Shown here in pieces: positions 171-4,040 of a stretch of DNA of 60,525 bases (positions within the stretch are counted from its first letter, which is position 1; the number at the start of each line of letters is the position of its first letter). The stretch comes from Gracilibacteraceae bacterium (GTDB lineage: Bacteria > Bacillota > Desulfitobacteriia > Desulfitobacteriales > Syntrophobotulaceae): assembly GCA_031266805.1 (NCBI GenBank), contig JAISAH010000025.1:1-60525 (forward strand). Reading direction: 5' to 3'. The translations under genes and the position numbers were made by a program. Under the pieces are notes generated by a model. The model had not been told where the DNA came from and did not search any database. It saw nothing but the letters and a program-made list of their open reading frames with translations.

Positions 171-3100
171 TCATTGTTGGCGCAAACCCAGGCGCAGCCC
201 GGCCAGGACCGCCGCGGCCCAAACGGCGAGCACCGCCGCGAAAAACGGGGCGAAAGGCGGAGCGTCAGTCGGCGGGACGGCCGGGGCGGCGGGCAGGGTA
301 GCCAGCTCGGTTCCGCTCTCCGGCGACTCGGTCAGCATAAAGGCTATATCCACGGTCTGGGCGGCGAAAACCGCGCTCAAAACGTGGCGGCCCCCCGCCA
401 TCGCCGCCAGCCGCTCCGCCGGCACGGTCAAAATCGTGCTGCCGGAGCGGGCCGCGTAGTCCGCGCCGGGCGCCCAGAGGGCTTCGTCACAATACAGCTC
501 CAGGAATTCCTCCAGCGGGATGTCGATCCGTACTTCCAGCGGCCCGCTCCCGTCATAGCTGATTTCGTACTCGGCCGCGCCTTCCCCCGGAGCGGGCGGC
601 AGGAAAGTCAGGGCCGGCCCCGCCGCGGGCGGAGTGGTATCGACGGCCGGGGCGGCCGGCTCCGGCGGGGCGGGTTCAGCCGGGGCCGGATTCGTCTCTG
701 TTGGCGTTTCCGGCGCGGGTTCTCCCGGTTGAGCGGCGCTGACGATTATGGAGCCGCCATCGCCCTCGCCGCCGGGCTGCGCCGGAGCGGACGGCGTTAC
801 GGGATCAGCCGGCTGTTCCGGCGTCGGCTGTTCCGGGGTAGCGGGGGTTTCCGGGGTGTTTGGTTGCTGTGGAGTGGCTGGCTGTTCCGGTTGTTCCGGA
901 GTGGCCGGCGATTCAGGAATAGTCGGCTGTTCAGGTGTGGTTGGTTGTTCAGGAGCGGTTGGTTGCTCGGGACTCGCCGGTTGTTCAGGGGTGGTTGGCT
1001 GTCCGGGACTCGCCGGTTGTTCAGGCGTGGCCGGCTGTTCCGGAGTAGTTGGCTGCTCAGGGTTCGCCGGCTGTTCAGGAGTAGTCGGTTGTTCCGGACC
1101 CCACGGCTGTTCCGGGAGGGTTGGCTGTCCGGGACTCGCCGGGTGTTCCGGGTCCGTCGATCCTTCCGGATTAACCGGTGAGACAGGCTCGGCCAAATCC
1201 ACCGTAAAGCGCTGAGCCGACACATGCTGGACTCCGTCGATACTGAACTCGGCGGCTCCTGTATGGATCATACCGTCTTTGTCCAGATTAGGCAATACTT
1301 GAGCGATGAGCGTCACCACTGTGCTGCCGCTCTCGGCGTCGTAATATGTGGTCGCCAGTATTTCCCCGTCCAGCCAGAACCGCTTGAAGTAGAGGAAATT
1401 GTTATCGCCTTCGCTGATCACGCCGTCGCCGTCCATATCTTTGTCCGCCGCTGTGAAGATTTGGTCGGCCAAAAGCGTGACGATATAGTCGCCGTCAATG
1501 CCGGGGACGGCAGGCGAACCGATAGTGGAAACCACGACATAATCGTTCGTCGCCGCCAGACCGGTGTCGTCCGCCTCATTCACCGTGACGGTGAGTTCCT
1601 GGCGGTCGAGCAGATAATTATGCGGGTAAGAGCGCACCTCGATCTCGACATAAAACGCGCCGTTATCCAGCGGCGCCCCGTAAAACTGACCGCTCAGCAT
1701 CTCCAGCCCGTCGTAAAACTGGCCCTTCTGCATCAGAAACAGGCCGGCGGGCAGCGTTCCGCTGATAATATTGAATTCCAGCGCCACATTATCCGGCATC
1801 ATCGTCTTAATAATGTCCTGATACGGCACCGAGCGCCAGACGTCGTCGTAGACGCTCCGGGTGACCGAGCCGTCGATCTCCACAAGGGCGGCGTCGTTGG
1901 CTTTGGCCCAGGCTGTGATAAAACTCCCCTTGACGCCGTGAGTGACGCTTCGGGCGGAAAGCGCTATGTCCGCCGGCGGCGTGAGTTCAAAATACCCTAT
2001 TCCGCCCACGGAGATCACGCTCATCGGCACATAAACGGCCACATCGCCGCCCGTCAAGGTAATTTCTTCCAGAAAAAAGACCGGCAAATCCCACATACCG
2101 TGCTGAATGATGATCTCGACTAACGAGGCGCAGCGGAGAAAAGCTCCGCCGCCGACGCCGGTCACTCCCGCCGGGATCACGATTTTTGTCAAACCGCAGG
2201 CTTCAAACGCGCCCTCGCCGATGGCGGTCAAGCTGCTCGGCAGCGCCACGCCGGCCAAGCTGGCGCAGTCACGAAAAGCGAGACGCCCGATGCCGGTAAC
2301 CCCTTCTTGGATTTCCACATCGCTCAGGTTCCCGCAGCCAAGGAACGCCCTTTCGCTGACGACAGCCAGACTGCCGGGGATCACCGCGGCGGTCAAACCG
2401 GCGCAGTCCTCAAACGCGCTCTCGCCGAGACTGGTCACGCCGTCCGGGATCACTATCACGGTCAAAGCTCTGCAGTATTTAAACGCCCCATAGCCGATAG
2501 ACGTCACCTCCGGGATAACGACGCCGGTCAAGCTCCCGCAGCCGGCAAACACTCCGTCGCCGAGGGTGGTCAGACCGCTCGATATCACCGCGCCGGTCAA
2601 TCCGGCGCAGTCAATAAACGCGTAATGGCCGAGCGTCGTCACGCTGTCTGGGATCACGACTCCGGTCAAAGAGACGCAGCCCTGAAACGCGTAATCGCCG
2701 ACGCTGATCACGCCGTCCGGGATCAGGGCGCTGGTCAAAGCGGCGCAACCGGCAAACGCGCTGCTGCCGATAGTCGTCACGCCGCCTGGGATAACCACGC
2801 CGGTCAAAGAGAGGCAATTACGAAACACACCGTTGCCGACGGCGGTCACGCTGCTGGGGATCACCGCTTCGGTCAAAGAGGCGCAGCCCTCAAACGCGCT
2901 TTCGCCGAGGCTGGTCACGCCGTCTGGGATCACCACGGCGGTCAAAGCGCCGCAGTCCTGAAACGCGCCGTTGCCGAGGTCGGTCACGCCGCTGGGGATC
3001 ACCACATCGGTCAAAGCGGCGCAGCCGGCAAACACATAGAGACCGATGGCGGTCACGCCTTCCGATATCTCCAAATCCGTCAGGCCGGCGCAGCCGGCAA

Positions 3101-3596
3101 AGGCGTAATCGCCGACAGACGTCACGCTGCCCGGCATTTTCATTGCAGTCAAACTGACACATTCGCGAAAGGCGTGACCGCCGATGCTGACTGTGCCATC
3201 CGGGATCACAATATCGGTCAGAGCGCCGCAATAGCCAAACGCCTCAAACCCAATGCTGACCACACCTGCCGGTATTTCCACCCCGGTCAGACCGGCGCAG
3301 CGGGAAAAGGCGTAATCGCCGACAGCGGTCACAGTCAGTCCGTCAATTTCCGCCGGTATCTCCACATAGCTGTCCGTGCCCGTATATTTTATGATCGTGA
3401 TCGTATCGCCGCTGATGCTGTAAATAAAATCCGCTGGCGGCGCGGCGCCGACCCGGAGGGTGTCCGGCGCGGTCGGGGCGGAGGAGAGCAATGCCAGTGC
3501 GAAAGCCGTCGCGCCGAGCAGCAGCGCCGCGCTGAGAAGCGCATGATACAGGGACCGTTTGCTATGAGACTGACGCTGTGATCCGCGTTTGTACAT
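171..3596 (-). CDS. BspA-type leucine-rich-repeat surface protein (1141 aa)
   Basis: Probable cell-surface adhesin-like protein. The start at 3596 (MYKRGSQ) has a GAAGGGAG ribosome site; an upstream in-frame ATG at 3704 lacks one. Residues about 16-38 form a hydrophobic signal or anchor segment. About twenty LRR_5 (BspA/TpLRR) repeats of 23 residues follow, with the pattern IPxGVTxIGxxAFxxCxxLT. After them come a non-repeat domain, a calcium-loop-like stretch (DKDMDGDGVI) resembling one dockerin or EF-hand loop, then a Pro/Glu/Gln-rich PEQPxxPEQP tract coded by about 780-1170, a small beta-rich domain, and a hydrophobic C-terminal helix ending LGLRQQ. The C-terminal helix suggests membrane anchoring; no LPxTG motif is seen. 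Such proteins are known in host-associated and predatory anaerobes, often binding host proteins, but the ligand here is unknown. The PEQP tract is a DNA repeat and likely varies in length between strains. Confidence 0.88.
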   Translation of the reverse strand: MYKRGSQRQSHSKRSLYHALLSAALLLGATAFALALLSSAPTAPDTLRVGAAPPADFIYSISGDTITIIKYTGTDSYVEIPAEIDGLTVTAVGDYAFSRCAGLTGVEIPAGVVSIGFEAFGYCGALTDIVIPDGTVSIGGHAFRECVSLTAMKMPGSVTSVGDYAFAGCAGLTDLEISEGVTAIGLYVFAGCAALTDVVIPSGVTDLGNGAFQDCGALTAVVIPDGVTSLGESAFEGCASLTEAVIPSSVTAVGNGVFRNCLSLTGVVIPGGVTTIGSSAFAGCAALTSALIPDGVISVGDYAFQGCVSLTGVVIPDSVTTLGHYAFIDCAGLTGAVISSGLTTLGDGVFAGCGSLTGVVIPEVTSIGYGAFKYCRALTVIVIPDGVTSLGESAFEDCAGLTAAVIPGSLAVVSERAFLGCGNLSDVEIQEGVTGIGRLAFRDCASLAGVALPSSLTAIGEGAFEACGLTKIVIPAGVTGVGGGAFLRCASLVEIIIQHGMWDLPVFFLEEITLTGGDVAVYVPMSVISVGGIGYFELTPPADIALSARSVTHGVKGSFITAWAKANDAALVEIDGSVTRSVYDDVWRSVPYQDIIKTMMPDNVALEFNIISGTLPAGLFLMQKGQFYDGLEMLSGQFYGAPLDNGAFYVEIEVRSYPHNYLLDRQELTVTVNEADDTGLAATNDYVVVSTIGSPAVPGIDGDYIVTLLADQIFTAADKDMDGDGVISEGDNNFLYFKRFWLDGEILATTYYDAESGSTVVTLIAQVLPNLDKDGMIHTGAAEFSIDGVQHVSAQRFTVDLAEPVSPVNPEGSTDPEHPASPGQPTLPEQPWGPEQPTTPEQPANPEQPTTPEQPATPEQPASPGQPTTPEQPASPEQPTAPEQPTTPEQPTIPESPATPEQPEQPATPQQPNTPETPATPEQPTPEQPADPVTPSAPAQPGGEGDGGSIIVSAAQPGEPAPETPTETNPAPAEPAPPEPAAPAVDTTPPAAGPALTFLPPAPGEGAAEYEISYDGSGPLEVRIDIPLEEFLELYCDEALWAPGADYAARSGSTILTVPAERLAAMAGGRHVLSAVFAAQTVDIAFMLTESPESGTELATLPAAPAVPPTDAPPFAPFFAAVLAVWAAAVLAGLRLGLRQQ

Positions 3597-3646: not shown

Positions 3647-3686
3647 TGGATTGCCGCGGCGCTGTGAGCGCCTCGCAATGACGGGG
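3647..3686. repeat. Dispersed repeat unit B
   Basis: The arms GGATTGC and CTCGCAATGACGGGG match the unit at 74-105, with a different middle part. It lies between the second palindrome and the ribosome site of the BspA-like gene, so it would be part of that gene's 5' leader. Confidence 0.6.
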
Positions 3687-3696
3687 AGGGGGCGAA

Positions 3697-3722
3697 TGTA
3701 ACATTTTATCTAAAATGTTACA
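3697..3722. promoter_or_regulatory. Perfect 26-bp palindrome, proximal copy
   Basis: Two 12-bp arms, TGTAACATTTTA and TAAAATGTTACA, are exact reverse complements around a TC centre. A near-identical copy lies at 3842-3867. The pair looks like operators for a dimeric regulator, or like hairpin-forming ends of a small element. The AT-rich sequence contrasts with the GC-rich surroundings. Confidence 0.6.
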
Positions 3723-3754
3723 TTGTGGCCGAAACCCTGGTGAATCGGGCGAAT

Positions 3755-3778
3755 AAAAAACCGCCGGATGGCCGGCGG
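3755..3778 (-). terminator. Intrinsic terminator in the BspA-like leader
   Basis: On the minus strand CCGCCGG and CCGGCGG arms (7 bp, 4-nt loop) are followed by six U. No minus-strand gene lies upstream, so this would stop transcripts from the promoter at 3876-3884 before they reach the BspA-like gene. It therefore acts either as an attenuator or as the end of a short RNA. Confidence 0.65.
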
Positions 3779-3841
3779 AAGGGTTTTAACGGCGGAAAGA
3801 GGAGCGAGAAAAAGCGGAGAAATCAAGGCTCTCGCCTTATA

Positions 3842-3867
3842 TGTAACATTTTAGATAAAATGTCACA
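3842..3867. promoter_or_regulatory. 26-bp palindrome, distal copy (candidate operator)
   Basis: The arms TGTAACATTTTA and TAAAATGTCACA differ from a perfect palindrome by one base, around a GA centre. The copy is the reverse complement of the one at 3697-3722 except for that base. It lies directly downstream of the predicted minus-strand transcription start, where a repressor site would be expected. Confidence 0.55.
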
Positions 3868-3875
3868 TCAGGGGT

Positions 3876-3884
3876 ATTATACCA
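3876..3884 (-). promoter_or_regulatory. Extended -10 promoter reading toward the BspA-like gene
   Basis: The minus strand reads TGGTATAAT, an extended -10 box (TGn-TATAAT). No convincing -35 box is present at 16-18 bp, which is typical for extended -10 promoters. The predicted start is near 3869. Confidence 0.45.
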
Positions 3885-4040
3885 TCGACCGGTCACACGG
3901 CGGTCACAAAACGCGAGAATTTGTTCGCGGAAAAAACTTTTTCTGAACGCCCGTTTCGCCGTGCCTGTATACCCATTATATTCCTGGGACATTCTCCCGT
4001 CAAGGAAAATGACGGAATATTTCAATAAAATTATCCGGAC

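Follow-up and report, generated by a model that had tools for sequence, protein, structure and literature searches.

A putative invertible-terminator phase switch before a BspA-like surface-protein gene of a Gracilibacteraceae bacterium, one member of a multi-locus set

Layout of the locus

The window, which is the whole stretch of 60,525 nucleotides analysed here, carries on its minus strand a gene for a BspA-like surface protein preceded by two palindromic sites. Read along the minus strand, the order is a promoter element, an extended −10, a 28-bp site, 117 bp containing a terminator, a second 28-bp site and the BspA-like gene. The features are as follows.

3889–3911, minus strand: conserved promoter element TTTTGTGACCGCCGTGTGACCGG with tandem TGTGACCG, candidate activator site; 13 copies in the genome at ≤3 mismatches, 12 of them adjoining a switch site
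3876–3884, minus strand (read 3884–3876): extended −10 TGGTATAAT, read from the letters and aligned with paralogues
3841–3868, minus strand: putative promoter-side recombination site, 11-6-11, core 3852–3857 (sequence comparison)
3724–3840, minus strand: putative invertible segment, 117 bp (inversion seen in paralogues)
3755–3778, minus strand: intrinsic terminator, seven G-C pairs and a T tract, facing the promoter as assembled, i.e. OFF (terminator scan and paralogue comparison)
3696–3723, minus strand: putative gene-side recombination site, 11-6-11, core 3707–3712 (sequence comparison)
171–3596, minus strand: BspA-like (LRR_5) surface-protein gene, start inferred

The longest open reading frame of the BspA-like gene begins at 3704, inside the gene-side site; a GGGAG upstream and a paralogue starting MYKRGS suggest 3596 as its start. 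The first-pass annotation had described twin 26-bp palindromes, reverse complements of each other, behind a promoter and on either side of an intrinsic terminator, and all of these elements are present. The palindromes are real, but the conserved site is 28 bp long (11+6+11), and the copy called perfect, at 3696–3723, is so except for its two central bases. The site at 3841–3868 is an inverted copy of it with one mismatch. The two lie 145 bp apart and, judged by their non-palindromic centre, are inverted copies of each other. The window has two matches to the 28-mer at ≤3 mismatches, whereas 100 dinucleotide shuffles give an expectation of 0.00, so the palindromes are not due to chance. Because of the extended −10, a transcription start near 3869 is plausible, which would make the promoter-side site the first 28 transcribed bases.

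Two smaller repeats accompany the sites. A motif like CG-GAAACCCTTGA recurs in this genus just inside both sites in inverted arrangement (3724–3738 and 3826–3840 in the window) and is absent outside them; it could be an accessory binding site. A GC-rich short repeat (CATTGCGAGGCGC ... GCGGCAATCC) lies directly after the gene-side site, at about 3650–3690 of the window, and is also present beside the element on contig C115.

Copies of the site in the genome and the genes behind them

In the genome to which the window belongs (3.38 Mb in 152 contigs), the 28-mer is found 33 times at ≤3 mismatches. With looser arms, 17 complete pairs are found, spaced 142–145 bp from start to start, and five single sites, of which four are near contig ends (C98, C142, C21 and C54) and one is truly single (C69:14446). 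The copies are spread genome-wide, but as pairs of fixed spacing before genes, and not scattered without link to promoters, which the first-pass annotation had set as the observation that would count against it. The link to promoters shows in the tandem-TGTGACCG promoter motif, of which a single copy (C35:11365) lies away from any switch site; in the other 12 the promoter is kept outside the site at a nearly fixed distance. This motif may be the binding site of an activator shared by the surface-protein set. Judged from these copies, this genome would contain at least 17 such switches, most of them in front of large surface-protein genes.

Pfam was run on 12 clearly assigned downstream genes, some of them cut at the end of a contig or stretch, and nine of these carry surface-type domains: three have LRR_5, four CWB2 and one Big_2 together with LRR_4, and the ninth encodes a papain-like protease with lectin-like and Flg_new domains. 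The other three comprise two genes without a Pfam match and one IS605 TnpB. The element on contig C30 lies between genes for an FkbM methyltransferase and an ATPase-like protein, either of which may be the controlled gene. In two elements that are nearly identical (L077:5754-7093 and L082:1038-2377), the gene that follows after about 20 bp is an IS605-type TnpB gene and not one for a surface protein.

At the true single site (L089:11447-11474 = C69:14446-14473), a BspA paralogue directly follows the promoter and one site, and there is neither an interior nor a second site. The arrangement looks as if it were a natural 'locked ON' version of the window switch.

A six-base core matched within each pair

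All 26 pairs from four genus genomes have sites whose central 6 bp match exactly as inverted copies; core positions differ in 0 of 156 cases as against 60 of 572 for arm positions. Most cores of the window genome differ from one another in the central two bases only. Genome G004, which has stretches identical to contigs of Gracilibacteraceae MAG JAISWK01, has seven pairs with seven different cores, each matched within its pair.

An independent scan, with one genome per species, required ATGTNAC and GTNACAT at both sites with 102–132 bp between the sites, and left the central 14 bp of each site free. It matched 89 stretches, 80 of which were taken as loci; since the pattern needs the fixed heptamers and the spacing, pairs that are more diverged or differently spaced are missed. 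In 78 of the 80 pairs the match extends over exactly 6 bp. Within these 78, position 11 differs in 25 pairs and position 18 in 15, and positions 12–17 in none; across all 80 the figures are 27, 17 and a total of 2. The two non-matching pairs, from a Bacteroidetes MAG and a Nitrosotalea MAG (L133 and L178), are taken as chance and were dropped after the core test, though they are still counted in the 78 of 80. Tyrosine recombinases exchange strands in a way that would demand identical bases across exactly 6 bp, with an 11-bp arm on each side. The sharp-edged 6-bp identity, together with free variation of the arms, therefore points to strand exchange over a 6-bp overlap.

The resulting site rule is ATGTNAC, a matched 6-bp core and GTNACAT, in pairs 130–155 bp apart. 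The whole set comprises 100 distinct pairs after removal of duplicate or contained loci (L144, L162, L169 and L147). The spacings of the 100 pairs cluster at 140–147, with small groups near 130–135 and 151–155; that these groups are roughly one helical turn apart is suggestive only. The paired pattern was absent from viral contigs in the pattern scan.

Orientation of the segment and of the terminator

The terminator of the window has its stem at 3778–3761 and its T tract running to 3755, and is found on one strand only, between promoter and gene (−13.0 kcal/mol on the reverse strand, 0 on the forward). The scanner requires −8 kcal/mol and a T tract. Over the 100 distinct interiors it called a terminator on exactly one strand in 51, on both in 0 and on neither in 49, and it made calls in 88 of 500 shuffled interiors. 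With 49 interiors lacking a call, the terminator is clear for the window and most of its paralogues and is not claimed for every member of the family; in some members the stop may be weaker or depend on a factor, or the segment may hold other signals.

Comparison of elements with matching flanks reveals the interior in both orientations. Of 187 such comparisons, the interior is inverted in 33, the same in 111 and without a clear verdict in 43; the set held four duplicates, so these are counts of comparisons and not of independent events. In four pairs of loci (L150/L202, L136/L149, L185/L198 and L135/L200), all near-identical cases, one flank scores 95–105 out of 110 and the interior aligns only when inverted. 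Among the 12 promoter-adjoining sites of the window genome, ten (three of them partial, at contig ends) have the terminator-OFF end next to the promoter. In the element on C14 (L022/L083) the interior runs, relative to the shared promoter, the opposite way from that of seven others, and the remaining one is the single site on C69, which has no interior. Both orientations are thus seen between paralogous or related loci, i.e. across loci, and at the one orthologous locus compared between two species the orientation is the same.

Candidate recombinases

A tyrosine recombinase of 191 amino acids is encoded on contig C135 (PF00589, E 2.5e-24, 86.4 bits against a Pfam cut-off of 27.1). Tyrosine recombinases have the catalytic pattern R..H-x-x-R..H..Y, and R41, H137, R140, H163 and Y172 are invariant in an alignment of five of these proteins. 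The C135 protein corresponds in alignments to the C-terminal part of Xer proteins; of the solved structures, it aligns with XerA. The NCBIfam cut-off for the FimB/FimE invertase subfamilies was missed (best 50.1 versus 222 bits, four proteins scanned), as was that for the XerC/XerD equivalogs (at most 50.7 versus 329.6 bits). Its gene is flanked by genes read by eye as rpmH/rnpA and rpoN, and adjoins no site in the window genome. The four other genus genomes have homologues at 55–98% identity. Of 100 relatives, 23 carry a homologue, and the 18 of these outside the genus reach at most 45% identity.

The link between recombinase and sites comes from other genomes. In 31 of the 78 loci, a tyrosine recombinase gene of about 190 codons starts downstream of the pair and points away from it, at 29–88 bp in 27 loci and 154–567 bp in four; this count leaves out L150 and L152, where the recombinase matches are partial or distant. 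A genome search, which left out L135 and L136, found the recombinase in 32 of 33 genomes that carry sites, at E ≤ 1e-25, versus 0 of 2 chance-hit genomes. Six of the 33 stand apart, namely G105, which has no homologue at that threshold, and five with weak or partial matches of 94–111 bits. Linkage and co-occurrence together make a tyrosine recombinase the most likely enzyme to invert the segments. The terminator scanner reads the 31 recombinase-linked loci as ON in 16 cases, OFF in 5 and undecided in 10. In six Synergistales records (L135, L136, L149, L196, L200 and L206), the recombinase gene lies behind its own switch, and the terminator occurs there in both orientations relative to that gene.

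The genus also has a small Mpi-like serine recombinase (L093:6205-6810, on C83), with homologues in L117, L119, L120, L125 and L126; in two relatives it lies close to surface-protein genes. That this Mpi/Hin-like enzyme flips the switch in place of the tyrosine recombinase was at first the favoured idea because the cores of the window genome mostly differ in two bases, a variation confined to the centre of the site, and it gains from the presence of the gene in all five genus genomes and from one copy in G004 about 1.2 kb from a pair. We now regard it as improbable. Serine invertases of the Hin/Gin/Mpi type exchange strands over a 2-bp crossover core, whereas 78 of the 80 pairs described here have a sharply bounded matched core of 6 bp, and G004 has up to six variable yet matched bases. 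Moreover, a serine recombinase homologue is present in none of the 78 loci of the wider set, as against 31 with the tyrosine recombinase. The serine enzyme may run a second, separate inversion system.

A probable phase switch by inversion of the terminator

Taken together, three observations argue for DNA inversion: the cores are matched, interiors occur in either orientation, and a tyrosine recombinase gene adjoins many pairs in other genomes. Counting against it are the like orientation at the orthologous locus, the 49 interiors in which no terminator was called, the distance of the C135 gene from every site, and the weak, partial or missing homologues in six site-bearing genomes. We consider the window locus to be very probably (probability of roughly 0.88) a phase switch of the cwpV type, in which an invertible terminator is OFF as assembled, and one of a multi-locus set. 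The tyrosine recombinase of about 190 amino acids, encoded elsewhere on C135, would bind the two 28-bp sites and exchange strands over the 6-bp core, and the 117-bp segment would thereby be inverted. In the assembled orientation, the terminator would face the promoter and transcription would stop before the BspA-like gene. In the inverted orientation, the hairpin would lack a U tract in the direction of transcription, and RNA polymerase would read through into the gene. For the window locus itself we infer the flipping, the identity of the acting recombinase and the effect on transcription from the comparisons described above. On/off control of a surface-protein gene, which the first-pass annotation had already proposed, is probable. 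The OFF state may well give rise to a short, terminated transcript, but as a by-product. A dedicated RNA of about 115 nt, a repressor with DNA looping and an antitermination switch, which had been offered as explanations, find no support, as strand exchange is indicated both by the matching of the 6-bp cores and by the inverted interiors.

A different explanation is a cis-acting RNA, in which the palindromes pair into a long stem around the terminator and the cores match through base pairing. The single strand indeed folds at −69.1 kcal/mol (z −9.9), and a consensus fold of eight paralogues contains the long stem and the terminator; in 8 of its 47 pairs both partners have changed. Such a stem, however, arises from any inverted repeat, and base pairing would constrain arms and core equally, yet all mismatches fall in the arms. 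An RNA element also leaves the inverted interiors and the linkage to a recombinase unexplained, and we consider it very improbable. A small RNA or attenuator had been suggested in part by a GNRA hairpin; its letters (AAGGC-GAGA-GCCTT at 3838–3825) are in place, but the hairpin is not kept across the eight paralogues and is missing from their consensus fold. Rfam returned no match at gathering score in the window. It is still harder to see the element as a miniature transposon with palindromic terminal repeats that carries a terminator by chance, in spite of the many copies of similar length in one genome and the two nearly identical copies before TnpB genes (L077 and L082). A promoter conserved outside the site at nearly fixed distance in 12 copies speaks against it, as does the one fixed relation of the element to a recombinase gene in 31 of 78 loci. 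The ends of one transposon family would also share one sequence, whereas the seven G004 pairs have seven private cores. We regard this as the least probable of the explanations.

Relation to known inversion systems

The cwpV switch of Clostridioides difficile has a promoter outside the element, inverted repeats flanking an intrinsic terminator, and the tyrosine recombinase RecV encoded elsewhere; the repeats are imperfect, 21 bp long and separated by 195 bp, with no further copies reported there for strain 630 (PMC2784873). The window locus resembles this description in having an outside promoter, a terminator segment, a candidate recombinase encoded elsewhere and a surface protein behind. Several targets carry CWB2 cell-wall-binding domains, as does CwpV. 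Unlike cwpV, the sites here are 28 bp long with an 11-6-11 layout and 142–145 bp apart, they form 17 pairs in one genome, and in other genomes the switch often precedes the recombinase gene.

The RecV-dependent switches of C. difficile use one tyrosine recombinase for several invertible loci (PMC5903667; PMC7446863), and the seven inversion sites of that species have mostly unrelated repeats (PMC5903667). One recombinase for several loci is also what we predict here, but with one site family of conserved arms and private cores. The Bacteroides fragilis Mpi system has a master invertase that acts on many loci with surface products (PMC5903667). The predicted arrangement here is similar, but Mpi is a serine enzyme and the Mpi-like gene of this genus is not the best candidate. 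With FimB/FimE the candidate shares its form of a short, single-domain tyrosine recombinase, and it matches NCBIfam PRK09871 and PRK09870 ('tyrosine-type DNA invertase'), though far below the cut-offs (49.7 versus 222 bits). The fim switch inverts a promoter (PMC2784873), whereas here it would be a terminator that is inverted. The dif site has a 28-bp 11-6-11 layout, and the sites described here are dif-like in this layout only.

Clostridial inverton group 139 with tyrosine invertase group 35 is described as almost entirely from Clostridia and with adjacent tyrosine recombinases; in the one example for which coordinates are given, the start-to-start distance of the repeats is about 231 bp, compared with 130–155 bp here (PMC11892184). 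This group might overlap the present site family. In the openly licensed literature searched, we found no paper describing this site family, no use of the phrase 'invertible terminator' and nothing related on termite phase variation by DNA inversion; a search with the letters of the site gave no paper on the topic by title among the matches listed. The mechanism proposed for the window locus is the one known from cwpV.

Implications

Both the site and the enzyme are found again in many uncultured bacteria, and it is possible, though we place it slightly below even odds, that they constitute a self-contained inversion system across phyla (Clostridia, Synergistales and Gastranaerophilales). One recombinase would flip many switches, often that of its own gene, and the variable 6-bp cores would serve as locus 'barcodes' against cross-recombination, giving an independent, combinatorial on/off code of the surface. 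With a switch before the recombinase's own gene, the capacity to switch would itself phase-vary. In the papers found, invertible-terminator switches are otherwise represented by few C. difficile loci, as compared with at least 17 of one predicted family here. The variation of cores within one genome provides a testable model for how inversion at many sites may avoid crossover between loci. With the site rule, the regulon can be located in any metagenome by a pattern search, and sequencing reads would then give the in-situ phase state of each surface protein.
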